In this document: positions 18,967-58,728 of the stretch, in pieces
Layout of the letters: every line of letters starts with the position of its first letter
Position numbering within the stretch: position 1 is the first letter of the stretch
DNA from: Acidobacteriota bacterium
Lineage (GTDB): Bacteria; Acidobacteriota; Blastocatellia; Chloracidobacteriales; JADJPF01
Assembly: GCA_016213785.1 (NCBI GenBank)
Contig: JACQZQ010000012.1
Coordinates: forward strand, 1-64,000
Length of the DNA: 64,000 bases
Direction of reading: 5' to 3'
Made by a program: the position numbers and the translations under genes
Notes under the pieces: generated by a model
The model's input: only the letters and a program-made list of their open reading frames with translations
What the model was told of the DNA's origin: nothing
Databases searched by the model: none

Positions 18967-19869
18967 TTGCATAGAAGAATAAAGCTAGAATTTGTAATAG
19001 AAAAACCCCCTGCTTATTTTCCACTTAACAACCATCCTTGGGCAGCAATTATTTATAATGCCCTAGAAGAAGCCAATAGTGATTATGCAAACTTTCTTCA
19101 TAACGAAGGCTATCACCTAGACCCAAATAAACATGGCAGTAAAGCTAACAAAAGACTCAAACCTTTTGTTTTTTCTAGACCAGAAATACCTAACTGCCAA
19201 ATAGTTAATGGTAAACTTTATACCTACAGCCAAGTAGTAAAATGGCAAATAAGCTCACCTATCCCAGAGTTTATCGATTCCCTAGCATCAGGTCTAAAAA
19301 AGCAAGCAATAATAAGTATTTATGATAGAAAAACACAAGAAGCCTATAAAAATAAAGAAATTGATAGTAGTAAAGCAACACTTATCTTAAGTAAAATAAA
19401 CCATATACAGTCGCCTATTTTCACTAGCAAAATGCGTTTTACAGCACTTTCCCCTATTACAGTCTGTATTGATTCAGCAGAGCGAAAAAAGATTTTTTTG
19501 CGTCCAGATAGTGAAGAATTTTCTAAAATTATTAAAAATAACCTGATAGAAAAATATGAACTTCTTAACAAAAGACCCCCAAAAGATTGTGAGTTTTCTT
19601 TTGATTTAGACTGGGATTATATTTGCCAAAAGTTTAATTTAGAGTATTTAGAAACTATAAAAGACCTTGATAAAAAGCTTGAAGTAAAAAGACTTTCTAC
19701 CAACAAAGTATCAAAACTAGTTCAATATGAACAAATTAATATTAAATCCTATTTAGCTCCTTTTATTGTTAGCGGAAACCCTGAACTTATAAGCGTAGGG
19801 TGGGATTGGGGTTTTGGCAACTGTAATTCTCAAGGCTTTGGCATGGCGCAATTTTCCCCCAAGCATTAA
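18967..19869 (+). CDS. cas6: CRISPR-associated endoribonuclease Cas6 (solitary)
   Basis: About 300 residues, the usual Cas6 length. Recognisable landmarks are the N-terminal RIKLEFVIEK strand, FPLNNHPWAAIIYNALEEAN, YANFLHNEGYH, the FVFSRPEI strand and, at the C-terminus, the glycine-rich loop GWDWGFGNCNSQGFGMAQF that contacts crRNA in Cas6 enzymes. Cas6 cleaves pre-crRNA within repeats, usually leaving an 8-nt 5' handle. The likely start is TTG at 18967-18969, with AAAGG 9 bases upstream and no ATG nearby. No other cas gene lies in the window; neighbours are a kinase and a Ni/Co transporter. One CRISPR-type repeat lies 115 bases downstream (19984-20019). The gene shows no frameshift, so it appears intact and may act in trans. 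Confidence 0.88.
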   Translation: MHRRIKLEFVIEKPPAYFPLNNHPWAAIIYNALEEANSDYANFLHNEGYHLDPNKHGSKANKRLKPFVFSRPEIPNCQIVNGKLYTYSQVVKWQISSPIPEFIDSLASGLKKQAIISIYDRKTQEAYKNKEIDSSKATLILSKINHIQSPIFTSKMRFTALSPITVCIDSAERKKIFLRPDSEEFSKIIKNNLIEKYELLNKRPPKDCEFSFDLDWDYICQKFNLEYLETIKDLDKKLEVKRLSTNKVSKLVQYEQINIKSYLAPFIVSGNPELISVGWDWGFGNCNSQGFGMAQFSPKH

Positions 19870-27891: not shown

Positions 27892-27919
27892 TTGACAAAG
27901 TTGTTTTTAATCATAAAAT
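27892..27919 (+). promoter_or_regulatory. Promoter of the TetR-family regulator
   Basis: TTGACA (27892-27897) and TAAAAT (27914-27919) are spaced by 16 bases, and the operator-like ACATTCGTTCGTTTTT begins directly after the -10 box. The expected start point is only about 14 bases before the ATG at 27940, so the leader is very short and lacks a Shine-Dalgarno sequence. This arrangement fits autorepression. Confidence 0.65.
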
Positions 27920-27935
27920 ACATTCGTTCGTTTTT
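27920..27935 (+). promoter_or_regulatory. Putative TetR operator, site 1
   Basis: ACATTCGTTCGTTTTT lies between the -10 box and the start codon of the regulator. It matches the core found upstream of the TonB receptor and of the lipase at 40.8 kb. Confidence 0.6.
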
Positions 27936-27939
27936 ATTT

Positions 27940-28590
27940 ATGCCAAAACTTAGTCAAGAAATAGTAAAAGAAAAAAAGTCTAACATTGAAACAGCTGCAA
28001 AGGTTTTATTTATTAAGCAAGGTTTTCATGGCACATCTATACGTCAAATTGCTGCACAGGCAGGAGTATCACTTGGAAACCTTTATAATTATTATAAAAC
28101 CAAAGAAGATATCTTAGAATCGCTAATTAGCAAATATGAAGATCTAATTACTGCGCGTTTTGATGAGATGTTTTCTAAAATAGAAGAACCTTTGCTACCA
28201 GAAAATTTTGTAAAACTAGGAAAGTTATTACAAGAAGTAGTATCAGATCATTATGAGTTTTGGTTGTTGATGTATATTGATGTGTTAGAATTTGACAACC
28301 AACATTGTAGAAAGTTTTTTGAAGGTTTATCAAAAAGATTTGGTCAAAGATTTCATAAGCATTTTTATAAGCTAAAAAAACAAAAATTGCTTAATGAAGA
28401 TATAGACCCTGCTCTAGGTTTTACTGTAGCTTATTTGCAATTTCTAAATTATTTTTTAATTGAAAAACTATTTGGCGGTAATCATCATTTGGGTATTAAT
28501 GATGATGAAGCAGTACTAAAATTAAGTGAACTTTTTTGTCGTGGCCTACTCTCAAGTACTGCTTTAGAAAAAAATTTTCCCAATAATTAA
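27940..28590 (+). CDS. TetR-family transcriptional regulator
   Basis: A 216-residue TetR repressor. The N-terminal helix-turn-helix is clear: NIETAAKVLFIKQGFHGTSI, then RQIAAQAGVSLGNLYNYYKT (about residues 15-54). The C-terminal ligand domain is helical and of ordinary length. TetR relatives with this architecture (FadR/YsiA, PsrA types) often sense acyl-CoA or lipids. That fits the genes downstream, but the ligand is inferred. The start is ATG 27940: an upstream TTG would overlap the -35 box. The gene is followed by the TonB receptor, with a second copy of the operator between them, so it probably represses both itself and the lipid/PHA locus. Confidence 0.92.
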   Translation: MPKLSQEIVKEKKSNIETAAKVLFIKQGFHGTSIRQIAAQAGVSLGNLYNYYKTKEDILESLISKYEDLITARFDEMFSKIEEPLLPENFVKLGKLLQEVVSDHYEFWLLMYIDVLEFDNQHCRKFFEGLSKRFGQRFHKHFYKLKKQKLLNEDIDPALGFTVAYLQFLNYFLIEKLFGGNHHLGINDDEAVLKLSELFCRGLLSSTALEKNFPNN

Positions 28591-28610
28591 TCTTATTTTT
28601 AATTTTTATA

Positions 28611-28630
28611 AAAAACGTTCGTTCGTTTTT
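28611..28630 (+). promoter_or_regulatory. Putative TetR operator, site 2
   Basis: AAAAACG-TTCGTT-CGTTTTT is an inverted repeat with 7-bp arms that contains the TTCGTTCG core. It lies 33 bases upstream of the TonB receptor ATG, where it could block the promoter of the receptor and the operon behind it. Confidence 0.65.
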
Positions 28631-28662
28631 ATACACCAATAACTAAATCAGGAGAGAGAAAA

Positions 28663-31600
28663 ATGTATAAATACAGAGTAATAGCAATATTTTTTCTAGT
28701 ATCTTTGCTAGTACCAATGCAATCAATTATATTTGCTCCTAGTGTTTATGCTCAAAGCACAACAGGAGATATTAGTGGGTTAATTTCTGATCAAACAGGT
28801 GCGGCTCTATCAGGGGCTAGTGTAATAATAAAGAACCAAGACACTGGAATAGAGCGCGAAATTACGGCTAATGAATCAGGCATATTTACAGCAAGGCTAC
28901 TACCTGCTGGTAAATATACTCTTACTATCAGTATAGAGGGATTTAAGGGCGTAATCTTACAAGATGTACAAGTAAATATAACTCAAGTAACTTCACTTAA
29001 GCTTGCCCTAGAGCCTGCTAGTGTTTCAGAAGTAGTTACAATAACAGCAACTCCTCCTTTAGTACAATCAGAATCAACCCAATTAGGCCGTAATGTAGAC
29101 GAACGAACTTTGCGCCAATTGCCTTTACCTACACGTAATTTCCAACAACTCCTCACCTTATCGCCAGGCACATCTGCTAATCTCTCCAATAATACCGACT
29201 TAGGCCGAGGTGATGCAACAGTTTCTGTTAATGGTCAACGCACTACTAGTAATAGTGTACGGATTAATGGAGTAGATGCTAATTCAATTGGTACAAACTC
29301 TACTCCTAATATTGCTGTTCCTGCAACTGATACAATTCAAGAATTTATTGTTCAAACTAGTTTATATGACGCTTCTAATGGACGTAATGCTGGGGGTAAT
29401 GTTGAGGCTATAACTAAATCTGGAACAAATGCATTTCATGGAAATGCCTATGAGTTTTTACGCAATCGCTCATTAAATTCTAATGACTTTTTCCTTAATG
29501 CAGCAGGACAACCTAAACCTGTATTAACTAAAAATCAATTTGGGTTTACTTTAGGCGGGCCTATTATTCGTGATAGAGCGTTTTTCTTTGGTTCTTATCA
29601 AGGTACTCGTGAACGCAATGGAGCTTCATTAAACAATAGTCTATCCTTCCCTACTATCCCTGTTGCCTTAACTAATAGCAATAGAACAGCAATAGGACTT
29701 GCAGCAGCATTTGGACTACCTGTAAGTGTGATTAGCCCTATTGCAGTTTCTCTTTTACAAGCACGCCTTCCTAATGGTCAATTTGTTATTCCAACGCCAA
29801 CTACAGCTACAGGTTTAACGCCTATTTCAGGGATTTCTAAATTCCAAGAAGATCAATTTAATATTAATCTTGATCTAAAAATTAATGATAAACATACTTT
29901 TGTAGGTAAAGTATTTTCTGCAAATAACCCAACAACACAAGCTAATTTTAACTTTGCTGGTTTAGGTAATGGCCCAACTCAATTACCTGGATTTGGTGGA
30001 GAGCTAGACTTAATAAATCGAGTAATTTCTTTAACTGATACCTATGTTTTTAGTCCAAATATTGTTAATCAAGCTCGTTTTGGATTTAACCGTATTCGCG
30101 TTACCTCTGAGCCTCAAGAACCATTTACTGCTAAGCAATTTGGAATTAACAGCCCAACAGGTAATCTATACTCTGGACTACCAACCATTCAAGTTGTAGG
30201 TTTATTTACATTTGGCTCATCTCCTTTTGCTGATCAATCATCAGCCATTAATACTTTTAATTATGGGGATACTCTTTCAATCACTGCTGGCAGACATCGC
30301 ATACGTCTTGGTGCAGAATATCGCCGCTCACAAGTTAATTTCTTTTTTAATGCCTTTACTCGTGGTCAATTAATTTTTCCAACATTTGCTAGTTTTTTAG
30401 CAGGTCAATCCATTTCACTACTTGGTTCAGGTGTTTTTGATCGTGCACTAAGAGTTAATGAATTTAGCTTTTTTGCTCAAGATGATATTAAAGTTAATAA
30501 TCGTTTAACTCTAAATTTAGGCGTTCGTTATGAATATTTTGGCAATCCAACAGAAAAACAAGGTCGTTTAATTAATTTCTTACCCAATCAATTTAAGGCT
30601 GGTGCTCCAACATCAATTGCTCAACCTCCAAATGGTTTTGTCCAAGCAGGTAATGCAGAAAATCCTATTCAAGGCGTTCCTCTAGTCTCTGATTCATTAA
30701 TTGATAATGACCTAAACAATGTTGCTCCACGTTTTGGTTTTGCTTTCAAACCTTTTAACACTGATAAACTTGTACTTAGGGGCGGTTATGGAATTTATTT
30801 TGACCGTGTTTCAACTCGTTCAGTTAACACACAAGTATTAAACTTTCCATTCTTTTCTTTAGCAACTTCTGTAGGAAGACCTCTAGCTGCACCATTTGCT
30901 CCCGTACCCCAGCCAACAGCTTTTCCTGTAGTCCCAACAGTCCCATCGCTTTTAGGCGTTCCTATAAGCGGGATTTTCTTAGATCCTAATTTCCGTACAC
31001 CTTATATCCAACAATATAACTTCAATATTCAATATGCATTAACCAAAGATCTACTCTTAGAAGTTGGTTATGTTGGTTCAAAAGGTACAAAACTACTCCA
31101 AGTCATTAGTCTAAATCAGCCTGTTTTTAATCGTGCTACTAATCAATTTACATTGCCTTTAGGCCCATTTCTATCAACACAAAAAAATCCTGCTGGAGGT
31201 ATTCAACAAGTACAATCTAGCTCTACTTCTCATTTTGATTCTTTCCAACTTAGTTTAACTAAGCAATTTAGCAAAGGCTTGCAGTTTTTAGCCTCTTATA
31301 CACTCGGTAAGTCTATAGATAATTACTCTGGTGCTGCAATTAATGAGCTTACAGGTATTCCTGGAGATCAATTTAATACTAGTGGTAATCGTGGTCGCTC
31401 AGACTTTGATCGCCGTAATCGCTTTGTTTTAAGTGGTGTTTATGACCTACCTAAGTTTAATGTTCAATCTAAACTAGTTGGTAAAGTAGTAAATGGTTGG
31501 CAAGTTAGTAGTATTTTAACTTTACAATCAGGACTACCATTTACCATTGTTGATGCTCCTAGCAACTTTATTTTACAACGCGCAAACGTTGTAGGAGGCG

Positions 31601-31977
31601 CTAATCCAGAAAAATCAGGTGATGTTAAAGACCGTCTAAATAGTTTCTTTAACACTACGGCTTTCCTACCATCAAGACAAGCACTAGTAGGAACAACCCT
31701 TAACCCATTCTTTGATCCAAATGCACCTTTTGGAAATCTTGGTCGTAACACATTAACTGGCCCTGGGCAAAAGAATCTAGATATTTCAATCGTTAAATTT
31801 ATCCCAATCAAAGAAAGCTTTAATATGGAATTTCGTAGCGAATTCTTCAATGCTTTCAATACAGTAAATTTCTCAAATCCAAATAGTAATATTGCTGTTC
31901 CAGCAACATTTGGTCGTATTACCTCAACTAGTAGTGGGCCTCGTGTAATTCAATTTGCACTAAAGCTTAGTTTCTAG
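28663..31977 (+). CDS. TonB-dependent receptor, Oar type with carboxypeptidase-regulatory domain
   Basis: A 1104-residue outer-membrane receptor. A signal peptide (IFFLVSLLVPMQSIIFAPSV) is followed by a CarboxypepD_reg domain (GDISGLISDQTGAALSGASV, about residues 35-120), a plug domain (VTITATPPLVQ...LPLPTRNFQQLLTLSPGT) and a long beta-barrel ending in the aromatic beta-signal FALKLSF. Oar-like receptors are greatly expanded in Acidobacteria, with few known substrates. Here the ligand may be a lipid or a product of the secreted esterases, judging from the downstream operon. RBS AGGAGAGAG precedes the ATG. A TetR-type operator lies just upstream and an 11-bp hairpin separates the gene from the downstream run. 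Confidence 0.93.
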   Translation: MYKYRVIAIFFLVSLLVPMQSIIFAPSVYAQSTTGDISGLISDQTGAALSGASVIIKNQDTGIEREITANESGIFTARLLPAGKYTLTISIEGFKGVILQDVQVNITQVTSLKLALEPASVSEVVTITATPPLVQSESTQLGRNVDERTLRQLPLPTRNFQQLLTLSPGTSANLSNNTDLGRGDATVSVNGQRTTSNSVRINGVDANSIGTNSTPNIAVPATDTIQEFIVQTSLYDASNGRNAGGNVEAITKSGTNAFHGNAYEFLRNRSLNSNDFFLNAAGQPKPVLTKNQFGFTLGGPIIRDRAFFFGSYQGTRERNGASLNNSLSFPTIPVALTNSNRTAIGLAAAFGLPVSVISPIAVSLLQARLPNGQFVIPTPTTATGLTPISGISKFQEDQFNINLDLKINDKHTFVGKVFSANNPTTQANFNFAGLGNGPTQLPGFGGELDLINRVISLTDTYVFSPNIVNQARFGFNRIRVTSEPQEPFTAKQFGINSPTGNLYSGLPTIQVVGLFTFGSSPFADQSSAINTFNYGDTLSITAGRHRIRLGAEYRRSQVNFFFNAFTRGQLIFPTFASFLAGQSISLLGSGVFDRALRVNEFSFFAQDDIKVNNRLTLNLGVRYEYFGNPTEKQGRLINFLPNQFKAGAPTSIAQPPNGFVQAGNAENPIQGVPLVSDSLIDNDLNNVAPRFGFAFKPFNTDKLVLRGGYGIYFDRVSTRSVNTQVLNFPFFSLATSVGRPLAAPFAPVPQPTAFPVVPTVPSLLGVPISGIFLDPNFRTPYIQQYNFNIQYALTKDLLLEVGYVGSKGTKLLQVISLNQPVFNRATNQFTLPLGPFLSTQKNPAGGIQQVQSSSTSHFDSFQLSLTKQFSKGLQFLASYTLGKSIDNYSGAAINELTGIPGDQFNTSGNRGRSDFDRRNRFVLSGVYDLPKFNVQSKLVGKVVNGWQVSSILTLQSGLPFTIVDAPSNFILQRANVVGGANPEKSGDVKDRLNSFFNTTAFLPSRQALVGTTLNPFFDPNAPFGNLGRNTLTGPGQKNLDISIVKFIPIKESFNMEFRSEFFNAFNTVNFSNPNSNIAVPATFGRITSTSSGPRVIQFALKLSF

Positions 31978-32003
31978 TTTCCTCGCTGATGTAGGGCTAT
32001 AGA

Positions 32004-32028
32004 GTAGGGCTAAATTCTTTAGCCCTAC
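32004..32028 (+). terminator. Hairpin between TonB receptor and downstream operon
   Basis: Perfect 11-bp arms (GTAGGGCTAAA 32004-32014, TTTAGCCCTAC 32018-32028) around a TTC loop, followed by AAATTTTC. It lies 23 bases before the next ATG. With no long U-tract it may attenuate or process the transcript rather than stop it fully. Confidence 0.65.
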
Positions 32029-32050
32029 AAATTTTCTAAAAGGTTATAAA

Positions 32051-32887
32051 ATGTCAAAACCCCAATTAATTGATCACGAAATTAATCACGAAATTAATAA
32101 TGAAATTTATTATGAAATTTATGGTCAAGGCCAGCCATTACTATTAATTCCTGGCTTTGCTACAGGTCTTTGGATTTGGTATAAACAAATTCCAGTATTT
32201 TCAAAATATTATAAAACTATTGTCTTTGATAATCGTGGTGTAAGCCGTTCAACAAAAGCTATTTTTCCTTACTCAATGGAAAAAATGGCTGATGATGTGG
32301 CTAATTTATTGAGTTTCTTAAAAATTAAAAAAGCTAATATTCTTGGTGCTTCAATGGGCGGTTTTATTGCTCAAGAATTTGCTCTAAAATATCCAGAAAA
32401 AGTTTCTAGTTTAATTCTTTGTTGTACTAGTTTTGGAGGAAGAAACCATGTTTCTCCCTCGGCTGAAACCCTCTTGTCAATGAGTTCTTTTCAAGATCCA
32501 AACTCAGAACATAGGATTCGCAGAGCTTTACAGTTTGCTTTTGCTAGTGAATTTCAAGAAAATAATCCAAAAGAATTTGAAAAAATAGTCGATCTTCGTT
32601 TAGCAAATCCTATTTTAACCCAAGCTTATTTAAGCCAATTACAAGCAGCAGTTACTTTTGATGTTGAAGATAAATTAGAGAATTTAGATCTCCCAACTCT
32701 AATAATGACTGGAGATAAAGATTTACTAGTACCTCCACAAAATTCACTTAACCTTGCAAGCAAAATAAAGAACTCCAAATTAGAAGTTATTAGTGGATTT
32801 GGTCACTCAATATTTATTGAATCTGCACCTACTTTTAACAAACTAGTAATAGATTTTTTAGAATCTATTAACAAAGGGAAGGACTAA
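32051..32887 (+). CDS. Alpha/beta-hydrolase fold esterase
   Basis: A 278-residue cytoplasmic hydrolase with oxyanion segment LLLIPGFATG (about residues 30-39), nucleophile elbow LGASMGGF (Ser101), acid residue in IMTGDKDLLVPP and histidine in SGFGHSIFIE, giving a complete triad. It resembles 3-oxoadipate enol-lactonase/esterase-type enzymes; the substrate cannot be read. Given its operon, a role in releasing or transferring hydroxyacyl or fatty acyl groups (for example intracellular PHA oligomer or thioester hydrolysis) is possible. The first 24 residues are encoded by a 12-bp tandem repeat giving the HEIN/NEIY pattern. It is the first gene of a nine-gene run; AAAAGG lies 7 bases before ATG. 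The next gene starts 5 bases after its stop. Confidence 0.85.
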   Translation: MSKPQLIDHEINHEINNEIYYEIYGQGQPLLLIPGFATGLWIWYKQIPVFSKYYKTIVFDNRGVSRSTKAIFPYSMEKMADDVANLLSFLKIKKANILGASMGGFIAQEFALKYPEKVSSLILCCTSFGGRNHVSPSAETLLSMSSFQDPNSEHRIRRALQFAFASEFQENNPKEFEKIVDLRLANPILTQAYLSQLQAAVTFDVEDKLENLDLPTLIMTGDKDLLVPPQNSLNLASKIKNSKLEVISGFGHSIFIESAPTFNKLVIDFLESINKGKD

Positions 32888-32892
32888 CTAAA

Positions 32893-33891
32893 ATGACACG
32901 CTATGCCAAAATAGTAGGTACTGGTTCTTATGTGCCTGAAAAAATGTTAACTAATGATGACTTAAGCCAAATGCTAGGTGAAGATATTAATACTTTTGTT
33001 TCTCAAGTTGTTGGCATAGAACGTCGTCATTTCTGTTCTGACAAAGAAAACACAACTGATTTAGCCGTTGAAGCAGGACGTAGAGCCATAAAAATGGCTA
33101 ATCTAAAAGCCGAAGATATAGACCTTATAATTTTAGCAACAGATACTCCTGCTTATATTTCCCCAGCAACATCTACAATTGTTCAATATTGTTTAGGCGC
33201 TAAAAATGCTGGTTCATTTGATGTAAATTGTGCTTGTGCAGGTTTTGTTACAGCCTTAAAAACAGCAGCAACTTATATAATGGGTGATCCTGAATATAAA
33301 AATATTTTGGTCATAGGCGCTTATGCAATGAGTAAATATTTAGACTGGGATGATAAAAAAACCTGTACTATTTTTGCTGATGGTGCTGGGGCAGTAGTCC
33401 TCCAAGCAAGCGATACACCTGGTGGTTATTTAGCTTCAAAACTCTATGCTGATGGTCAATATCATAATTACTTAGGAATATTTGCTGGCGGAACAGCAAT
33501 GCCAATTACTAAAAATGTTTTAAGAGAAGGCAAACATAATAAAGTAAGATTTTTACAAAAATATCCTCCAGAAATTAATATGGAAGGTTGGCCTAATTTA
33601 GTTAAAGAAACGCTTAAAAAAGCCAATGTTGATATTAAAGATGTTAAACAATTTTTCTTTACCCAAGTCAACCTAAGCACAATTAAAGCTGTTATGCAAA
33701 ATCTAGAACTTCCAATGTCACTTGCTCATACAATTATGGGTAAATGGGGTTACACAGGCTCAGCTTGTATTCCAATGGCTCTAGATGATGCAGCAACTTT
33801 AGGCAAAATTCAAAAAGACGATCTTGTGCTTATGTGTGCTTCTGGAGGTGGCCTAAATATGGCCTGTGCGGTTTTTCGATGGTCGATCTAA
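32893..33891 (+). CDS. FabH-like (ketoacyl-ACP synthase III family) enzyme lacking the His and Asn residues
   Basis: A 332-residue thiolase-fold protein closest to KAS III. The nucleophile is present: FDVNCACAGFVTAL with Cys115 aligned to E. coli FabH Cys112. The two residues that support decarboxylative condensation are not. The HQAN motif (His244 in E. coli) reads TQVN with Thr257, and GNTSAASVP (Asn274) reads GYTGSACIP with Tyr287. It should still be able to take up an acyl group on Cys, but malonyl-ACP condensation is doubtful. Ester- or thioester-forming acyl transfer, as in CerJ-like KAS III variants, is an attractive alternative (inference). It sits between the hydrolase and the phasin-like gene in a PHA-type operon, so it may prime, transfer or move acyl chains there. 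Confidence 0.85.
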   Translation: MTRYAKIVGTGSYVPEKMLTNDDLSQMLGEDINTFVSQVVGIERRHFCSDKENTTDLAVEAGRRAIKMANLKAEDIDLIILATDTPAYISPATSTIVQYCLGAKNAGSFDVNCACAGFVTALKTAATYIMGDPEYKNILVIGAYAMSKYLDWDDKKTCTIFADGAGAVVLQASDTPGGYLASKLYADGQYHNYLGIFAGGTAMPITKNVLREGKHNKVRFLQKYPPEINMEGWPNLVKETLKKANVDIKDVKQFFFTQVNLSTIKAVMQNLELPMSLAHTIMGKWGYTGSACIPMALDDAATLGKIQKDDLVLMCASGGGLNMACAVFRWSI

Positions 33892-33956
33892 ATAGACCAT
33901 CTATTTTCAAAACAGCCTTTACAAAGGCTTCTTAACTTAAAAAAGGAGAACTTAAA

Positions 33957-34301
33957 ATGAATTTACTTTCTGTTTATCAAGAAACTGCAAAAGCTGGTAT
34001 CCGTAGCTCGGTACATTTCCAAAAAGCTGCTGATAAAATGACCCAAACTTTAGTCGAAGCTACATTGCCATCCAAAGATGTAACAACTACTGTTATGAAA
34101 GAATATATCAATAATTGTTACCAAACTCGTCAACAATTTTTAGATAAAATGGCAGATACAGCAGAAAAATTAATTACTGATTATCCATTTAAAAAAGAAG
34201 TTGAAGAATTTAACTCTCGTGTTACTGAAAACACTAAGAAAACCTTTGAGTTATTTTCTTTCCCTGTCTTAGTCAATGCTAATGTTAGCGCTAAGAAATA
34301 A
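33957..34301 (+). CDS. Phasin-like small helical protein
   Basis: A 114-residue, almost wholly helical protein without Cys-rich, membrane or enzymatic motifs. The pattern (ETAKAGIRSSVHFQKAADKM, TRQQFLDKMADTAEKLI) is the amphipathic, Ala/Lys/Gln/Thr-rich type seen in phasins that coat PHA granules. It could instead be a very short PhaE/PhaR-like partner of the synthase at 36990, since class III and IV synthases require a partner subunit and none of normal size is present. It has the strongest ribosome site of the operon (AAAAAAGGAG) and is followed by a perfect 15-bp hairpin, both consistent with high expression as expected for a granule coat. Assignment rests on composition and context. Confidence 0.55.
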   Translation: MNLLSVYQETAKAGIRSSVHFQKAADKMTQTLVEATLPSKDVTTTVMKEYINNCYQTRQQFLDKMADTAEKLITDYPFKKEVEEFNSRVTENTKKTFELFSFPVLVNANVSAKK

Positions 34302-34320
34302 ACACTTACTTAGCTAAGTT

Positions 34321-34359
34321 TAGATATTGCAATAAGGCTTAATTTTATTGCAATATCTA
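34321..34359 (+). terminator. 15-bp hairpin after the phasin-like gene
   Basis: Arms TAGATATTGCAATAA (34321-34335) and TTATTGCAATATCTA (34345-34359) are perfectly complementary around a 9-base loop. A-rich sequence follows rather than a U-tract, so partial termination or 3'-end protection of the upstream mRNA is more likely than complete stopping. Confidence 0.65.
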
Positions 34360-34402
34360 ATAAAAAATAACATTAAAACCTCTCTAATAAAAAATAAATA
34401 AT

Positions 34403-34792
34403 ATGCAATTTAATGATTTATTTGACAAACTATTCACTACAACAATAATCTTTTCTCAGCAAGATATTAATCAATTTGCTGAAATTAGCGGGGACAATAA
34501 TCCAATTCATATAGATGTAGAATTTGCGGCTAACTCTAAATTTGGTAAAACAATTGCTCATGGAATGTTAGTTTATGCTGTAATAAGCAAATATTTATCA
34601 ATACAATTTCCTTTATCAATACAAATATCAAATTCTTTATCTTTTCTCAGCCCAGTTTATGTAGAAGAAGAATTAATATTAACCCAAGAAATTATTTCAG
34701 CAACAGAAACAATTTTACAGGTAAAGACTCTTGTCACTAAACCAGATAAAGTAATAGCCTGTCAAAGCCTAGCTACATTAAAAATATCTTAA
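34403..34792 (+). CDS. phaJ: (R)-specific enoyl-CoA hydratase, PhaJ-like (MaoC hot-dog fold)
   Basis: A 129-residue single hot-dog protein carrying the hydratase-2 motif: FAEISGDNNPIHIDVEFAA followed by KTIAHGMLV. Asp31 and His36 have the same numbers as the catalytic pair of Aeromonas caviae PhaJ. PhaJ converts trans-2-enoyl-CoA from beta-oxidation into (R)-3-hydroxyacyl-CoA, the monomer for PHA synthase. Its location six bases short of 2.2 kb upstream of a class III-type synthase and beside an acyl-CoA ligase fits that route. The ribosome site is weak. A second, shorter-motif hot-dog protein follows after 19 bases. The alternative is a fatty-acid synthase dehydratase, which the PHA neighbours make less likely. 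Confidence 0.85.
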   Translation: MQFNDLFDKLFTTTIIFSQQDINQFAEISGDNNPIHIDVEFAANSKFGKTIAHGMLVYAVISKYLSIQFPLSIQISNSLSFLSPVYVEEELILTQEIISATETILQVKTLVTKPDKVIACQSLATLKIS

Positions 34793-34811
34793 CTTTAGGA
34801 GAAAAAATATA

Positions 34812-35198
34812 ATGGAAACACAAGTAGCTATTGGACAACAAGCCACAATAAAAAAAGTTTTTACTAAATCTGATTTGGATAAATATTCTAAATTAATTAA
34901 TATCAATACAAATAATTCACAAAATAACGTTGTACCAGAACCTCTACTAGCAGGGCTTTTTTCTATGCTACTTGGAACATCACTACCTGGAGAAGGCACT
35001 ATTTACTTAAAACAAGATCTAAATTTTCTATTTAGAGCAAAAATAGAAGATGAGTTATTAGCTAAAGTTGAAATTACAAATATTCGCAGAGATAAAGGCT
35101 TAATCACTTGTAAAACCACTTGTATAAATTCCAAAAATGAAATTATTTGCGAGGGAGAAGCTTTAGTAATGAATAAAAATAAAGCTTCAGGAGAATAA
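34812..35198 (+). CDS. MaoC-like hot-dog protein without the hydratase active site
   Basis: A 128-residue protein whose C-terminal half is plainly PhaJ/MaoC-like (SLPGEGTIYLKQDLNFLF, then DELLAKVEITNIRRDKGLI). Where catalytic members have D-x-N-P-x-H it has NTNNSQNNVV, so the catalytic Asp and His are missing. It probably pairs with the active hot-dog protein encoded just upstream, as HadA or HadC pairs with HadB in mycobacteria, to widen the substrate pocket for longer chains. This pairing is inferred from adjacency. RBS AGGAG precedes the ATG; the next gene starts one base after its stop, so translation is probably coupled. Confidence 0.72.
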   Translation: METQVAIGQQATIKKVFTKSDLDKYSKLININTNNSQNNVVPEPLLAGLFSMLLGTSLPGEGTIYLKQDLNFLFRAKIEDELLAKVEITNIRRDKGLITCKTTCINSKNEIICEGEALVMNKNKASGE

Positions 35199-35199
35199 A

Positions 35200-36987
35200 A
35201 TGAAATACCAAAATCTATATACCCTCTTTTGTGAACGTGTTTCACAATATACTGAAAAAAATATTTTCTACACAAGAGAAGAAAATCATTGGCAAGCTAT
35301 ATCTTGGAATAGTTTTGCTTATCAAGTTGAAAGTTTTAGCTCAGCACTGCTTTCATTAGGCTTAACTAAGAATCATTCTGTTTGTATTTTAATGGGAACT
35401 TTACCAGAATGGCCTATTAGCGACTTAGGAACTATTTTTGCTGGTGGTGTTAGTGTAGGGCTTTATCCAACAAGTTCTGCTGAACAATGCAAATATATTA
35501 TTAACCATTCAGATGCAGAATATATTGTCGTTGATACTAAAACACAGTTAAATAAAATTCTTCAAATTAAAAACGAAATACCAAAAATAAAAAAAATAAT
35601 TGCTCTAGATAAAAATCTTGTTGGTGAATCAGAAGAAATAATTTCTTACCAAGATTTTTTACAACTAGGAAACAATAATTTAAATTCAACAAAGTCTAGT
35701 TTTCAAGAAATAGCAAAACAAGCTAAACCAGAAGATGTTGCAATTATGGTCTACACTTCTGGTACAACAGGGCTTCCTAAAGGTGCTTGTCTTAGCCACA
35801 AATATATTATCAATAGCGTTGAATCGTTACTTGAAACCGTCCCTGTTTATGATACTGATAGGTCATTTTCATATTTGCCATATTGCCATGTAGCAGAGCG
35901 AATTACAGGTTTTTATAACCGTTTATATGCAGGTGCTCCAGCTTATTTTGTTAAAGATATAAATAAGCTTTGGGATTATATGTTAGAGGTAAAACCAACC
36001 GTTTTTGGTAGCCTTCCACGATTTTTTGAAAAAATTCATAGCAAAATAATTTCAGATATTGAAAACAGCGATCCTCAAGAACAACATCTATTTGATAAAG
36101 TAGTTAAATTAGGTCAAGAAATAGATAAATTAAAACAAAAACAATTTCCTGTACCAAGTTATTTATCAGAAATTTATGAGACTTTAGCAGGAGAAATCCA
36201 AAATAGAGTTAAAGCTTATTTTGGAGGAGAAATTAGAATTCTTTCCTCAGGGGGCGCTCCACTTCCTCAAGAAATAGCAGAATTTTTTAGTGCATTAGGG
36301 CTACCAATCTTACAAGCTTATGGGTTAACAGAAAATGTATGCACAGCCTTTAATCGCCCTGATAATCACCGTTTTGGCACAGTAGGACAAGCAATGCCAG
36401 GTTGTAAAATAAAACTAGCTGAAGATGGAGAAATTTTACTTAATAGCGAAATGATGTTTAGCGGCTACTATAAAGAACCTGAAAAAAGCGCAGAAATGTT
36501 TCTTGATAACTGGTTACTCACAGGTGATTTAGGAGCAATATCAGAAGATGGTTTCTTAAAGATTATTGGACGTAAAAAAGAGCTAATTATCACTTCTACA
36601 GGAAAAAATGTTGCTCCACTTTTACTAGAAAATTTCTTAAAAGAACACCATTTAATTAGCCAAGCTATGGCTTATGGAGATGGCAAAAGCTATTTAACTG
36701 CACTAATTACGCTTAATCAAATTGAAACAGAAAGCTATGCAAGAAGAAATAAAATAGAGTATTCTGATTTTGCTGATTTAACAAAAAAAGCTGAAATTAT
36801 TTCACTAGTTCAAACCCTAGTAGATAAAGTGAATAGCCAAGTATCATCAACAGAAGCAATTAAAAAGTTTGTGATTTTAACTCATGATTTGAGTATTGAA
36901 ACAGGTGAAATTACCCCTACATTAAAATTAAAAAGAAATGTTATTACAGAAAATTATAAAGAGCTTTTAGAGGCTCTATATAATTAG
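35200..36987 (+). CDS. Long-chain fatty acid-CoA ligase (AMP-forming)
   Basis: A 595-residue ANL-superfamily enzyme of the FadD15/long-chain type. Motifs: MVYTSGTTGLPKGACLSH (P-loop A3), AYGLTENVCTAFN (A5), LLTGDLGAISEDGFLKIIGR (A7/A8) and ELIITSTGKNVAP with the C-terminal domain. It activates free fatty acids to acyl-CoA with ATP. In the operon it would feed fatty acids to beta-oxidation and so to PhaJ and the PHA synthase. The start ATG has AGGAG 6 bases upstream and nearly touches the preceding stop; the synthase gene begins 2 bases after its own stop. Chain-length preference cannot be read. Confidence 0.93.
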   Translation: MKYQNLYTLFCERVSQYTEKNIFYTREENHWQAISWNSFAYQVESFSSALLSLGLTKNHSVCILMGTLPEWPISDLGTIFAGGVSVGLYPTSSAEQCKYIINHSDAEYIVVDTKTQLNKILQIKNEIPKIKKIIALDKNLVGESEEIISYQDFLQLGNNNLNSTKSSFQEIAKQAKPEDVAIMVYTSGTTGLPKGACLSHKYIINSVESLLETVPVYDTDRSFSYLPYCHVAERITGFYNRLYAGAPAYFVKDINKLWDYMLEVKPTVFGSLPRFFEKIHSKIISDIENSDPQEQHLFDKVVKLGQEIDKLKQKQFPVPSYLSEIYETLAGEIQNRVKAYFGGEIRILSSGGAPLPQEIAEFFSALGLPILQAYGLTENVCTAFNRPDNHRFGTVGQAMPGCKIKLAEDGEILLNSEMMFSGYYKEPEKSAEMFLDNWLLTGDLGAISEDGFLKIIGRKKELIITSTGKNVAPLLLENFLKEHHLISQAMAYGDGKSYLTALITLNQIETESYARRNKIEYSDFADLTKKAEIISLVQTLVDKVNSQVSSTEAIKKFVILTHDLSIETGEITPTLKLKRNVITENYKELLEALYN

Positions 36988-36989
36988 TT

Positions 36990-38006
36990 ATGATGAATTT
37001 ATTTAGATTACCAGAATTTATGTTGCAATTATTTGAAACTCCTAAAGTTGCTCAAACACCATCAGAAATAATTTATAGTGATTTTACTTTTAAGGTCTAT
37101 CACTATTTGCCTAAAGGTAATCTAGCCTCTTCTATTCCTATTTTAATAGTTAATTCACTAGTAAATAAATACTACATTTTGGATTTAATGCCAGGGAAAA
37201 GCTATGTTGAATATTTAGTCAGTCAGGGGCTTAATGTTTATTTAGTTGATTGGGGAGAACCTAAAATTAGTGACTCCGGTTTATCTTTAGAAGACTATAT
37301 AAGTTTTTTCTTAAATAGCATTGTAAAACAAGTATTAAAGCATTCTAAAGCTAAAAAACTATCAATGCTTGGTTATTGTATGGGTGGGACAATGGCGCTT
37401 ATCTATGCGTCATTAAAACAACAACATTTGCAGAATTTAGTTTTATTAGCAACTCCTGTTGATTTTCATAATGACTCTTTGCTCAGTCTTTGGGGCAGCC
37501 CAGAAAATTTTAATGTAGATAAGTTTATAAATATTTATGGAAATGTTCCAAAAGAAATTCTCTATAGCACTTTTATGATGCTCAAGCCTTTGAAAAACAT
37601 TACTAAATATGTTGATCTAGTAGAGAATATTGATCATCCTGAATATATAAAAGCCTTTATGGCTTTTGATCACTGGATAAAAGATGCTATTCCTATTGCA
37701 GGAGAAACTTTTCGTCAATTTATTAAATATGGATATCAAGAAAATTTATTAGTGCAAAATAAATTTCCTCTTGGCAGTCGCACTGTAAACCTAAAAAACG
37801 TCAAATGTCCATTGCTAAGCGTAGTTGCTGAACATGATGAAATAGTTCCCTTAAAATCTTCAGAAATCTTGGTGCAATTAGTTAGTAGTAAAGATAAAGA
37901 ACTATTAAAAGTAAAAGGCGGTCATCATGGTCTTTCCATTGGTGGAAGTGCTATAACAATTGTTTGGCCGAAAACTGTAGAATGGTTACTTGCCCACAAT
38001 AATTAA
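36990..38006 (+). CDS. phaC: Poly(R)-hydroxyalkanoate synthase, class III-like PhaC
   Basis: A 338-residue synthase. The lipase-like box is GYCMGG with Cys130 as nucleophile; Asp283 (AEHDEIVP) and His312 (GGHHGLSIG) complete the triad. The spacing Cys-Asp 153 and Cys-His 182 equals that of Allochromatium vinosum PhaC (149, 302, 331). VYLVDWGEP and FNVDKFINIYGNVP are also characteristic. The enzyme polymerises (R)-3-hydroxyacyl-CoA at granules. Class III enzymes need PhaE; no normal-sized phaE is next to it, and only the 114-residue helical protein at 33957 is a candidate. Two consecutive ATGs start the gene; the first, at 36990, is taken. No phaB lies in the window; a thiolase is encoded at 57.4 kb. 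Confidence 0.9.
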   Translation: MMNLFRLPEFMLQLFETPKVAQTPSEIIYSDFTFKVYHYLPKGNLASSIPILIVNSLVNKYYILDLMPGKSYVEYLVSQGLNVYLVDWGEPKISDSGLSLEDYISFFLNSIVKQVLKHSKAKKLSMLGYCMGGTMALIYASLKQQHLQNLVLLATPVDFHNDSLLSLWGSPENFNVDKFINIYGNVPKEILYSTFMMLKPLKNITKYVDLVENIDHPEYIKAFMAFDHWIKDAIPIAGETFRQFIKYGYQENLLVQNKFPLGSRTVNLKNVKCPLLSVVAEHDEIVPLKSSEILVQLVSSKDKELLKVKGGHHGLSIGGSAITIVWPKTVEWLLAHNN

Positions 38007-38027
38007 TCTCCCTGTGCAAGAGGTTTT

Positions 38028-39410
38028 ATGAAAGCTTTAACTAAAATTTTAACCAAAGTTTTAACAATATTTTTCTGCCTTGTAATATCAATAATGCTGC
38101 AAATAATGGATAAAGTAAGTTATGGACAAGAAAAGCTAGATACCCTAGAAAAACAAGATACACAAGATATACAAGGGAAAGAAGAAAAACAAACTAAAGA
38201 AGAAAAACAAGATACACAAATCAAACAAATCACCACTAAAACTAATTCCCTTATATTAGAAAGTACTTTTACAACAGTTTCTCATGGTTGGGCAAAAGCT
38301 GAACGATACAAAGTAGATAATGAAAATTTTCCTTTAGAAGACTATCCTCAAGATGGTAGAGGCGATCAAGATGGGCAAAGGTTACAATTTTTTGGTAATA
38401 AGCAACCTCATTCTAGCCAATTTTTACTTTACTATGCCCCTGGTTGGGACAAAAATGAAAAATCTATTCCAATATTGTTAGTACATGGCGCTAATGATAA
38501 TGCTGACAGGGCTTGGGCTAATCCTGGAGAATATGGTTTTGGTTGCGGGACTCCGCTTTGTGCAAAAACTGGTTTAATGCAAAGTTTAGTAGGCCAAGGT
38601 TATAAAGTTTTTGCAATTAATTTTCCTCATAAACATGGCGATAATCTGCTTTGGGCACAACAAATAGGTGTAGCTATTTCACGAATTAAAACCCTAACAG
38701 GTACAAACCAAGTAAATGTAGTGGCTTGGAGCAAAGGGGCTTTTGCTACTAGGCTTTATGTAAGCGGAATTAAACCTAAATGGGGCAAAGACTATGATAA
38801 CGACATTAATAAATTAATTTTAATTGGTAGCCCAAATTTAGGAATAGATTATGCATTTCGTCATGGAACAACTTTTAATAGCCTAATAGTCCCTAGTTGT
38901 GGAGGCTTTAAGATAAATGGCCCAGTAGCACATACTTCAGCACTTTGTCAGGAAAAGTGGCACCAATTCCCAGAACTATCAATCTATACCACCAAGGCAG
39001 GAAATTTTTTCCCAGGACAAAAACAAATGCTAAAAAAATGGGATGATAAATTCCCACTTCCTCAGAATGAAACTGATTGGAAAACGACTTATTATGGTGG
39101 TAAAGGTAGCATTTCTGAAGGCTTAGGTATAGATGCAGCCATTGAACAAGGCTCTTTAGTTAATCAAGTTTTATCTCAAGATATCCCTAAATCCATTAGC
39201 ACTTATTTATTAGCAGGAAATAAAGCAGATATCCCCCTTTTTCACAATGAACACACTGGAACAAGTGATGGGCTGGTTTTTCTTGATAGCGCTACACATA
39301 AGGGAGGAATTGGTAATTTAATAGCTACTGCGACTGTAGAAGCTAATCATTTATTACTTCCTTGGCATGCTAAATCTGTTGAACAAATTATTGAGTGGTT
39401 AAAAAAATAG
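38028..39410 (+). CDS. Secreted alpha/beta-hydrolase (lipase/esterase-like)
   Basis: A 460-residue exported protein. A signal peptide (ILTKVLTIFFCLVISIMLQI) is followed by a Lys/Glu/Gln/Asp-rich repetitive linker (about residues 35-70) and a hydrolase domain: PILLVHGANDNADRAW (oxyanion side), VNVVAWSKGAFATRLY (nucleophile elbow A-W-S-K-G instead of G-x-S-x-G), LILIGSPNLGIDY, and a likely His near ATVEANHLLLPWH. It resembles class-2 lipases or extracellular polyester depolymerases; the substrate is unproven. Placement after the PHA synthase and before a lipid-type MFS suggests external lipid or polyester breakdown. AGAGG lies 5 bases before the ATG. Confidence 0.78.
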   Translation: MKALTKILTKVLTIFFCLVISIMLQIMDKVSYGQEKLDTLEKQDTQDIQGKEEKQTKEEKQDTQIKQITTKTNSLILESTFTTVSHGWAKAERYKVDNENFPLEDYPQDGRGDQDGQRLQFFGNKQPHSSQFLLYYAPGWDKNEKSIPILLVHGANDNADRAWANPGEYGFGCGTPLCAKTGLMQSLVGQGYKVFAINFPHKHGDNLLWAQQIGVAISRIKTLTGTNQVNVVAWSKGAFATRLYVSGIKPKWGKDYDNDINKLILIGSPNLGIDYAFRHGTTFNSLIVPSCGGFKINGPVAHTSALCQEKWHQFPELSIYTTKAGNFFPGQKQMLKKWDDKFPLPQNETDWKTTYYGGKGSISEGLGIDAAIEQGSLVNQVLSQDIPKSISTYLLAGNKADIPLFHNEHTGTSDGLVFLDSATHKGGIGNLIATATVEANHLLLPWHAKSVEQIIEWLKK

Positions 39411-39421
39411 GAAAATAAATT

Positions 39422-40690
39422 ATGAGCACTTTAGCTGATTCAACAAAAACTTATTCTGAAAATGTAGGAAATTACTCTTGGTATGTACTTGGGCTTTTAA
39501 CAGTAGTTTATGCATTAAACTTTCTTGACCGCTCACTGATTTATATTTTATTTACCCCAATCAAAAAAGAACTTGCACTATCAGACCTACAACTTGCACT
39601 ACTTGGAACTACGTCATTTGTAATATTTTATACATTACTCGGTATTCCTTTTGGGCGTTTAGCAGATCGTACTATACGTAAAAATTTAATTGCTATTGGG
39701 CTAGCTATTTGGAGTTTATTTTCTGGCTTAACTGGCTATGCTGAAAGCTTTTGGGGAATTTTCCTTTGTAGAGTTATGGTAGGCGTTGGAGAAGCAACTT
39801 TGGGGCCTGCTGCACTTTCTCTATTAAGTGATTATTTTCCTGTAAGAATGCGTGCAACTGTCCAAGCTATTTATTCATCAGGAATTCCTTTAGGTGGTGG
39901 AATAGCATTCTTTCTTGGTGGTTGGATTGGTGGATCTTTAGGCTGGCGTTGGGCATTTTATTTGTTAGGTTTCCCTGGATTGTTAATAGCTTTATTTGTC
40001 TTCTTACTTAAAGAGCCTCCTAGAGGGCAAACAGAAAAAAATGCCACTCTATATCAAAGTGGCGATTGGAAAAGGCTTTTTAAGTCTAAAGCTTTAAGAT
40101 TTCATCATATAGGCTATGCCCTTTTTGCTTTGGCTGCTAATAGCTTAACTATTTGGGGGCCATCCTTTTTCTCTCGTGTTCATGGTTTAAGCATAGCAAC
40201 TATTGGGCTACTAGCAGGCATTCTTTCTCTTTTAGGTGGAATGCCTGGAACGATTTTAGGCGGCTATGCTTCAGACTGGTTTAGAAAAAAAGGCCCTGGC
40301 GGAAGAATGCTCTTTACCGCTTATGGAGCTATTGCTTGTATTCCTCTTTGGTTAATTTTACTTAATAGCAGTAATATTATCTTATTACTGGTAGCTAATT
40401 TATTTTTACTAGCAGCAGCATTAATTTGGCTAGGCCCAGCAGCAGCAGATGTTCATGATATTGCAGGGCCTCAATTAAGAGGCTTAGGTATTGGTATTTA
40501 CTTTTTTACCGTTAATATAATTGGTTATGGCTTTGGCCCTCCAATAGTAGGCAAAATTAATGACCTTATGTCTGTAAGCTCAAATCCTGGTCAAATGAAG
40601 TATTCGCTTTTAATCTGTCCTCTAGCTTGCTTACTAAGTGCTTTTTTCCTTTGGCTTGGTAGTAAAGCTATGGAAAAAGAAAAGTCTTAA
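39422..40690 (+). CDS. MFS transporter, Spinster-like family
   Basis: A 422-residue, 12-helix major facilitator. NFLDRSLIYILFTPIKKELA in helix 1 and GIPFGRLADRTIRKN at loop 2-3 match the Spinster (SPNS) branch, with SDYFPVRMRATVQAIYSSGI in helix 5. Eukaryotic Spinster proteins move lysolipids and sphingosine-1-phosphate; bacterial members are poorly known. In this operon, between an acyl-CoA ligase/PHA module and two secreted lipases, import of fatty acids or hydroxy-acids is a reasonable guess. AGGA lies 10 bases before the ATG. It is the last gene of the nine-gene run and is followed by a separate operator-flanked promoter. Confidence 0.88.
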   Translation: MSTLADSTKTYSENVGNYSWYVLGLLTVVYALNFLDRSLIYILFTPIKKELALSDLQLALLGTTSFVIFYTLLGIPFGRLADRTIRKNLIAIGLAIWSLFSGLTGYAESFWGIFLCRVMVGVGEATLGPAALSLLSDYFPVRMRATVQAIYSSGIPLGGGIAFFLGGWIGGSLGWRWAFYLLGFPGLLIALFVFLLKEPPRGQTEKNATLYQSGDWKRLFKSKALRFHHIGYALFALAANSLTIWGPSFFSRVHGLSIATIGLLAGILSLLGGMPGTILGGYASDWFRKKGPGGRMLFTAYGAIACIPLWLILLNSSNIILLLVANLFLLAAALIWLGPAAADVHDIAGPQLRGLGIGIYFFTVNIIGYGFGPPIVGKINDLMSVSSNPGQMKYSLLICPLACLLSAFFLWLGSKAMEKEKS

Positions 40691-40713
40691 ATTTTTTAAT
40701 AAGTTTTAGACAA

Positions 40714-40728
40714 ACGTTCGTTCTTTTT
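40714..40728 (+). promoter_or_regulatory. Putative TetR operator, site 3
   Basis: ACGTTCGTTCTTTTT matches sites 1 and 2 and overlaps the expected -35 region of the lipase promoter, whose -10 TATAAT is at 40743-40748. Confidence 0.6.
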
Positions 40729-40742
40729 TATTAAAACTTTGT

Positions 40743-40762
40743 TATAATAACGAACGAGCGTA
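40743..40762 (+). promoter_or_regulatory. Lipase promoter -10 box with TetR operator site 4
   Basis: A perfect TATAAT (40743-40748) is followed at once by AACGAACGAGCG (40749-40760). On the minus strand that sequence reads as a TTCGTTCG-type site matching 13 of 15 positions of site 2. Sites 3 and 4 therefore bracket the promoter. The -35 box is poor, as expected if it overlaps an operator. Confidence 0.6.
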
Positions 40763-40836
40763 CATTTTATAACTCACCCTCTCGTCAAACTTCATTTAAG
40801 TTGCATATTTTTCTTGCTTATAAAAAGGAGACCATT

Positions 40837-41901
40837 ATGAGAAAAAGTATTATTAGGATAAGTTTTTCTTGCTTACTAGTTTTAATATTAGCTTTAGGTT
40901 TTTATCCAGCAAATTTTACAAAAATTAGTGCTAATAAATCAGTCTCTACAAAAGATCTAACCCAAAATCCAATTAACAAAAATAGCGACCCATTTGATAA
41001 TGAAGGGGTTGCTGCTGTTAGTACAACAGGAATTACTAGTAATTTCAGAACTTGGTTATCAGCTAATGGATATAGTAGTTATGATTTTGCCCGTGATGAT
41101 TTAAGCGGTGGAAGTTATGGAGGAAAGTCTAGTTCAACTGACACAGTAGTTAATCAACCTGTAATTTTTATACATGGAAATTCTGATAAGGCTGTAGGAA
41201 GTGCTTTTGGTCAAACAGGTTGGACAGCTTCTATTGATTATTTTATGACTAAGGGCTATAAAACTTCTGAACTTTATGCAACAACTTATGGCCCTGCTAA
41301 TGCGCTTTTATCATCTGAACAATATCATTCTAGGGCATATTTAACAAAAATTAGGGCTTTTATTCAAGCAGTTAAACAATATACTGGAGCAACAAAAGTA
41401 GACGTTGTTACACACTCTTTAGGAGTTACATTAACTCGCAAAGCAATTAAAGGTGGATTAGCCTATGATCCTCTAAATGGAGGTTATTATGATTTAGGGC
41501 CATCATTAACAAGTAGTGTAGATACTTTTGTAGGTATTGCAGGAGCAAATCGCGGATTAACTTCTTGTTATCTAACAGGAGGAACTACTCCAACCTGTGA
41601 TGATGAAGTTGGATTATACCCTGGTTATACAGTGGGACTTTTAGGCCCCTACAATGTTTCTAGTTATTTAGTCGATCTAAATTCTTCATCACGTTATGAA
41701 GGAGCTTATATCTATACAATTTGGTCAACAGTTGATGAAGTGGTAGGATATGGCTCTGTAGTTTGGGGAAAATATACTTGTCAAATTCCTGGACAAACAA
41801 GTGAAAAAGTTTTTAGTACTGCGCCTTATGGTCATTTTGGCTTAAAAGACTTAACAGGTTATTATCAATGGAGAATGGTTAAGTCTCACGCTACTAATTA
41901 A
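40837..41901 (+). CDS. Secreted lipase, class 2 / PhaZ7-like
   Basis: A 354-residue exported hydrolase. Signal peptide MRKSIIRISFSCLLVLILAL; mature domain with QPVIFIHGNSDKAVG, GWTASIDYFMTKGYKTSELY and VDVVTHSLGVTLTRKAI (nucleophile Ser in T-H-S-L-G), plus Cys pairs that may form disulfides and a C-terminal His in YGHFGLKDL. The layout matches Lipase_2 and the related PHB depolymerase PhaZ7, so the substrate could be triglyceride or native polyester. The ATG at 40837 is chosen because AAAAAGGAG lies 6 bases upstream; an in-frame TTG at 40801 has no ribosome site. It has its own promoter flanked by two TetR-type operators and so joins the same regulon. Confidence 0.85.
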   Translation: MRKSIIRISFSCLLVLILALGFYPANFTKISANKSVSTKDLTQNPINKNSDPFDNEGVAAVSTTGITSNFRTWLSANGYSSYDFARDDLSGGSYGGKSSSTDTVVNQPVIFIHGNSDKAVGSAFGQTGWTASIDYFMTKGYKTSELYATTYGPANALLSSEQYHSRAYLTKIRAFIQAVKQYTGATKVDVVTHSLGVTLTRKAIKGGLAYDPLNGGYYDLGPSLTSSVDTFVGIAGANRGLTSCYLTGGTTPTCDDEVGLYPGYTVGLLGPYNVSSYLVDLNSSSRYEGAYIYTIWSTVDEVVGYGSVVWGKYTCQIPGQTSEKVFSTAPYGHFGLKDLTGYYQWRMVKSHATN

Positions 41902-58552: not shown

Positions 58553-58728
58553 AAAAGTCTCCAAAAGTTTATAGAAAATAAATAGTTGATATTTAAATTG
58601 AATTGCTATTTTATTACTAGGCTAAAAAGTAAGTTAGAATCTAAAAGAAAGCAAGACCGCTCTGCCATTTTAATTTACATCTACTTTCTCTTAGTATATC
58701 TTAGGCGTATTATATAGTATTATATAGC

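Follow-up and report, generated by a model that had tools for sequence, protein, structure and literature searches.

A putatively TetR-regulated locus of Blastocatellia that may scavenge ester-linked acyl compounds, with an apparently docked polyhydroxyalkanoate synthase module

The window analysed here, a stretch of 64,000 nucleotides from an Acidobacteriota bacterium of the class Blastocatellia (contig JACQZQ010000012.1, positions 1 to 64,000), contains at 27892–41901 a locus in which tetR and a TonB receptor gene precede nine plus-strand genes, with a lipase gene set apart from these, an inventory in which every member was found where the original prediction had placed it. This gene set is real and apparently under joint control of TetR, and it probably serves the bacterium in cleaving and importing external fats or polyesters. 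The account that we favour, with some reservation, is that of a TetR regulon conserved in Blastocatellia which scavenges ester-linked acyl compounds, either lipid or amorphous polyester, and onto which a polyhydroxyalkanoate (PHA) synthase module is docked. The synthase PhaC looks like an add-on module, and PHA storage like an optional function of the locus. Gene families were assigned by profile scans of the window proteins, and co-occurrence was counted among 147 genomes of the class Blastocatellia.

Synteny across relatives, which had been proposed as a check, is present. The conserved core comprises TetR, the TonB receptor, an esterase, a FabH-like protein, FadD, MaoC and a Spinster-type transporter of the major facilitator superfamily (MFS), and phaC is absent in most relatives that have this core. 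Among 24 loci with the FabH-type gene, some of them limited by contig ends, genes found within 10 kb encode FadD in 21, the TonB receptor in 17, TetR and the alpha/beta hydrolase ABH1 in 16 each, MaoC in 13 and the MFS transporter in 12 cases, and most core loci have a receptor 42–66% identical to that of the window. Other families keep the order tetR-TonB-(esterase)-ABH1-FabH-like-FadD-(hydrolase)-MaoC-MFS, either alone or with a phaC2-phaC pair nearby. Within the window's own family, two loci (L031 and L112) carry, in this order, tetR, the FabH-like gene, phaR on the opposite strand, a phasin-like gene, phaC2, FadD and phaC, with the MaoC pair between phaC2 and FadD in L031 and LipA after phaC in L112. 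Named close relatives of the window PhaC are encoded in Blastocatellia metagenome-assembled genomes (MAGs).

In a locus from another species of the same genus (L185), the genes for TonB, the FabH-like protein, MaoC1, MaoC2, FadD, LipA, MFS and LipB lie on a single contig, collinear with the window. Exactly three genes are missing from its operon, namely those for ABH1 (278 aa), the 114-aa phasin-like protein and PhaC, and the only PhaC-like gene of this genome is a distant one. Completeness of this genome is 87% and contamination 5%, but the gene gaps lie within the one contig. Since other members of the family carry phaC, its loss in this species would be the simplest reading, and PHA synthesis is thus dispensable for the operon.

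The original prediction had described a locus for lipid uptake and PHA storage, where lipid or polyester from outside would end up as medium- or long-chain PHA. Taken strictly, this makes it a dedicated PHA storage locus with all genes serving that purpose. The genes for PhaC, the phasin-like protein, the PhaJ-like hydratase and FadD do share an operon, PHA genes lie in or close to the FabH-type region in several families, and PhaC of the window's clade almost always occurs together with the FabH-type gene (FabH-type in 46/147 genomes, PhaC in 17/147, both in 16; Fisher p 1.4e-8 by genome). Such a dedicated function is nevertheless unlikely, as 30 of the 46 genomes with the FabH-type gene have no PhaC of this kind, as most relatives keep the TetR/TonB/FabH/FadD/MaoC/MFS set without phaC, and as phaC is missing from the same-genus operon too. 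The PHA interpretation thus holds in part.

Joint control by TetR is indicated by the operator TTCGTTCGTTTTTAT, of which the 6.4-Mb genome contains exactly two perfect copies, one at 27923 upstream of tetR and one at 28618 (28618–28632, plus strand) upstream of the TonB gene. Upstream of the separate lipase gene LipB lies an opposed operator-like pair (40717–40758), consisting of a copy with one mismatch at 40717 and a copy with two mismatches at 40744. The prediction of an operator shared across the locus genes thus finds support both here and in related sites of relatives, but not that of one TetR site, as the locus has two exact copies and two with mismatches. The operator core recurs upstream of tetR in other Blastocatellia, 16–68 nt from the gene and in its most symmetrical form as ACGAACGTTCGT, and in several relatives also upstream of the TonB gene, which provides a handle for finding the regulon in other genomes. 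The sole further copy with one mismatch in the genome (C114:3094) was discarded, as it lies inside an open reading frame and not upstream of a comparable gene. The first exact operator belongs to the tetR promoter region (27892–27937, plus strand), in which the sequence TTGACA-16-TAAAAT at 27892–27919 is the highest-ranking promoter-like match of the region. As both this sequence and the operator at 27923–27937 precede it, the ATG at 27940 is very likely the start of tetR, rather than the TTG at 27892. The TetR-family regulator encoded from there (27940–28590, plus strand; PF00440, E 6e-14) has orthologues of 48–63% identity at the equivalent position in relatives.

The TonB gene (28663–31977, plus strand) encodes an Oar-like TonB-dependent outer-membrane receptor with OMP_b-brl_4 and a carboxypeptidase-regulatory-like N-domain (PF25183, E 1.5e-212). 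Between it and the rest of the operon lies a hairpin (32004–32028, plus strand), possibly a partial terminator, which the same-genus locus also has, with a compensatory change. The nine plus-strand genes follow at 32051–40690 with spacings of 1–101 nt. They begin with ABH1 (32051–32887), an Est1-like esterase (PF00561, E 1e-39; Esterase 1, 8v16, E 3e-46), and end with the MFS transporter (39422–40690), the closest solved relatives of which are bacterial Spinster (6e8j, E 1.5e-42), SPNS1 and SPNS2 (the latter at about 1e-23), in agreement with the predicted Spinster type.

The window PhaC (36990–38006, plus strand) is class III-type and has an intact catalytic triad of C130, D283 and H312, which align with those of same-type orthologues. 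Its match to the class III model TIGR01836 (E 1e-107) spans the whole protein, with a score of 360.1 bits below the cut-off of 365.3. In relatives, PhaC is accompanied by PhaR (PF07879), phasin-like proteins and phaC2, and the window genome encodes its one PhaR away from the locus. The gene predicted to encode a phasin-like protein is present (33957–34301, plus strand), but its 114-aa product matched neither a phasin model nor any other family in our scans, and the label is owed to its position and to 17–31% identity with short proteins encoded next to phaC2 in relatives. A PhaB route from acetyl-CoA was considered and set aside: neither the window genome nor any of six near relatives yielded a reductase above the cut-off, although FabG-like proteins exist. 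The genome encodes 11 acyl-CoA dehydrogenases, which, together with the triad, the PhaR and weakly PhaE-like neighbours of phaC in relatives and the lack of a PhaB-type hit, speak for the PHA nature of the module. At 57371–58564, about 16 kb from the locus and on the opposite strand, lies a thiolase gene (PF00108, PF02803) that may have a phaA-like role.

Several relatives have, adjoining phaC, a second PhaC-like gene with Ser in place of the active-site Cys (GYSMGG or GYSLGG; L113:13041-14267, L114:10528-11727, L035:7161-8687, L037:8752-9972 and L038:8718-9995). In L031 and L112, from the window's own family, the motif of this second gene has Cys. Ser also occurs in the motif of a distant PhaC-like protein (L118:555-1829, G000:C60), which is encoded next to a gene that was judged by eye to be proline dehydrogenase-like, and this pair recurs in a relative (L120 in G003).

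Precursors for PhaC could be supplied by the hot-dog pair and the ligase encoded upstream. MaoC1 (34403–34792, plus strand; family scan) has D31 and H36, the Asp-x4-His motif of PhaJ, in support of the predicted PhaJ-like (R)-enoyl-CoA hydratase, and its hot-dog partner MaoC2 (34812–35198, plus strand; family scan) has no such motif. Both proteins are nearest to (R)-specific enoyl-CoA hydratases, and most relatives have a single MaoC gene. By analogy with HadAB, we infer that the two form a heterodimer and together amount to a split PhaJ. The long-chain acyl-CoA ligase expected at this locus is present as a FadD11-like protein (35200–36987, plus strand; PF00501, E 3e-69; FadD11, 345 bits).

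LipB (40837–41901, plus strand), the start of which we moved from 40801 to the ATG at 40837 downstream of a ribosome-binding site, is a predicted secreted hydrolase. Its profile matches PhaZ7 with E 3.5e-48 over profile positions 71–331, compared with about 1e-10 for plain lipases. Ser194 and His333 are invariant, and the HSxG serine and the late His motif align with those of PhaZ7. By this full-length profile homology we assign LipB to the PhaZ7 depolymerase family. Two secreted lipase-like enzymes had been predicted, which holds for LipB with its strong Lipase_2 match (PF01674, E 3e-61), but only in part for the 460-aa LipA (38028–39410, plus strand), for which a weak Lipase_2 match is all that was found. 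In the half that holds the nucleophile, LipA is similar to LipB; its predicted structure is poor (pLDDT 57), and its orthologues adjoin phaC in one relative (G003) and several Nannocystis genomes.

In a narrower form of the scavenging account, LipB would be a depolymerase of the PhaZ7 type that attacks amorphous PHA released when neighbouring cells lyse. The oligomers would be taken up and hydrolysed by ABH1, FadD would activate the products, the MaoC pair would dehydrate them, and PhaC would store them again. In favour of this are the full-length PhaZ7 match, the operator copies upstream of LipB, the encoded R-specific hydratase and the distribution of LipB: of the 147 genomes, 17 have it, and PhaC is present in 13 of these (7/10 genera). 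Many core loci have no LipB, however, and PF01674 includes lipases as well, so that polyester as the particular substrate appears possible but doubtful.

Several observations weigh against the favoured account or its polyester part. LipB scores 101 against the NCBIfam PhaZ7 model (NF050060), far under the cut-off of 450, and may therefore be an ordinary lipase. It is absent from most core loci, hence polyester cannot be the substrate everywhere, and in Chloracidobacterium it is not adjacent to the FabH-type gene. The co-occurrence of LipB with PhaC (p 9e-6 by genus) and that of the FabH-type gene with PhaC, which drops to p 0.011 when counted by genus, come from tests that ignore phylogeny. 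Finally, family scans found no PhaE in the window operon, and weak PF09712 matches in relatives only.

The FabH-like protein (32893–33891, plus strand; PF08545, PF08541) has the predicted fold of a ketoacyl-acyl carrier protein synthase III (KAS III; pLDDT 95) and keeps the nucleophile Cys115, while the catalytic His and Asn are replaced by Thr257 and Tyr287. Thr and Tyr occur in 39 of 39 aligned Acidobacteriota orthologues, and a Chloroflexota plasmid carries a KAS III gene with the same C-T-Y set (L192:9001-10008, CP069395.1). In a tree that contains some long branches and otherwise unsure joins, the C-T-Y proteins fall on one side of a branch with support 99/95 that separates them from four C-H-N proteins of the same phylum. 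A canonical C-H-N FabH is encoded elsewhere in the genome, which makes it unlikely that the C-T-Y protein is the housekeeping enzyme. With the Cys kept and the His and Asn of decarboxylative condensation gone, its most likely role is the transfer of acyl groups from one carrier to another, not the formation of ketoacyl-acyl carrier protein. We found no report of a C-T-Y KAS III in the literature searched, but this is weak evidence that there is none. The plasmid-borne gene itself adjoins a ketoacyl reductase gene, a gene of the acetyl-CoA hydrolase/transferase (CoA-transferase) family and a Zn-ribbon OB-fold gene.

The combination of a KAS III, an AMP ligase and an alpha/beta hydrolase resembles ole-type sets, and the FabH-like/FadD/hydrolase set could accordingly make a secondary lipid, Ole- or alkylquinolone-like, that the MFS transporter exports. 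KAS III-like acyltransferases with non-canonical residues are known as well, with C-H-D in CerJ and ChlB3 and S-H-H in DpsC (PMC9573744). We regard such a product as quite improbable: the protein is nearer to FabH than to OleA and is devoid of the His and Asn, the ligase is FadD11-like, and the secreted esterases and the TonB receptor indicate an inward flow. An Ole-type pathway in particular was rejected, also because the ligases of distant relatives match generic acyl-CoA ligases. Only tentatively do we suggest that the C-T-Y clade is a distinct acyl-transfer enzyme linking scavenged acyl-CoA to acyl carriers and, in some lineages, feeding the docked PHA synthase. If this is true, it would be a native KAS III-to-PHA route that was previously undescribed. 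The chemistry of this KAS III clade probably departs from the textbook one.

For the favoured scavenging regulon, substrates, direction of flux, TetR ligand and polymer formation are what we infer from families, residues, operators, synteny and gene presence or absence as read from sequence. LipB and LipA, both predicted to be secreted, would cleave esters extracellularly or in the periplasm, and the Oar-like receptor and the Spinster-type transporter would carry the products inward, where ABH1 may complete hydrolysis and FadD convert the acids to acyl-CoA. The MaoC pair, with MaoC1 as the catalytic partner, would interconvert enoyl-CoA and (R)-3-hydroxyacyl-CoA, either leading (R)-3-hydroxy acids into beta-oxidation or providing monomer to PhaC, which would store it on granules with the 114-aa protein as their coat. 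In this scheme, the FabH-like protein would shift acyl groups between carriers, and an accumulating acyl ligand may cause TetR to leave its operators.

Elsewhere in the window, a Cas6-like gene (PF01881) lies at 18967–19869, with no further cas genes seen in the window scans, and an aromatic amino acid lyase gene (PF00221, E 2e-201) at 55292–56779. An RNA-family scan of the window returned nothing but a tRNA.

In Acidobacteriota genomes surveyed from treatment plants in Denmark, PHA pathways were incomplete, three of 50 MAGs having phaA and phaC only, and the survey asked whether genes not yet described close this gap (PMC8100337). The locus offers candidates for this gap in the split PhaJ-like hydratase, FadD and the phasin-like protein beside phaC, and adds a secreted hydrolase of the PhaZ7 family whose distribution follows that of phaC.

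Among known systems, the phaC1-Z-C2-D-F-I cluster for medium-chain-length PHA in Pseudomonas likewise brings together PHA synthase, an alpha/beta hydrolase, a TetR regulator (PhaD) and phasins (PMC9049629), and two synthase genes occur in relatives of the window too. TetR control of pha genes is therefore already known from PhaD (PMC9049629). In contrast to the class II synthase of Pseudomonas, the window synthase is class III-type, the locus adds the TonB receptor, the FabH-like protein, FadD, the hot-dog pair, the Spinster-type transporter and secreted hydrolases, and its core persists without phaC. With class III PhaEC, the window PhaC shares the whole-protein TIGR01836 match and the triad, but differs by its score under the cut-off and by the lack of a PhaE in the window. 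LipB, like the extracellular polyhydroxybutyrate depolymerase PhaZ7 of Paucimonas lemoignei, appears to be secreted and has its motifs aligned over the whole domain, yet remains far under the curated cut-off. The FabH-like protein shares the KAS III fold with FabH, CerJ, ChlB3 and DpsC and has Cys as its nucleophile, with C-T-Y standing against C-H-N in FabH, C-H-D in CerJ and ChlB3, and S-H-H in DpsC. A KAS III was linked to a PHA synthase before, when an engineered FabH supplied PHA monomer in E. coli (Nomura et al. 2004, as cited in PMC8231600); that FabH was engineered and otherwise canonical, whereas the window has a residue variant natively in the operon.

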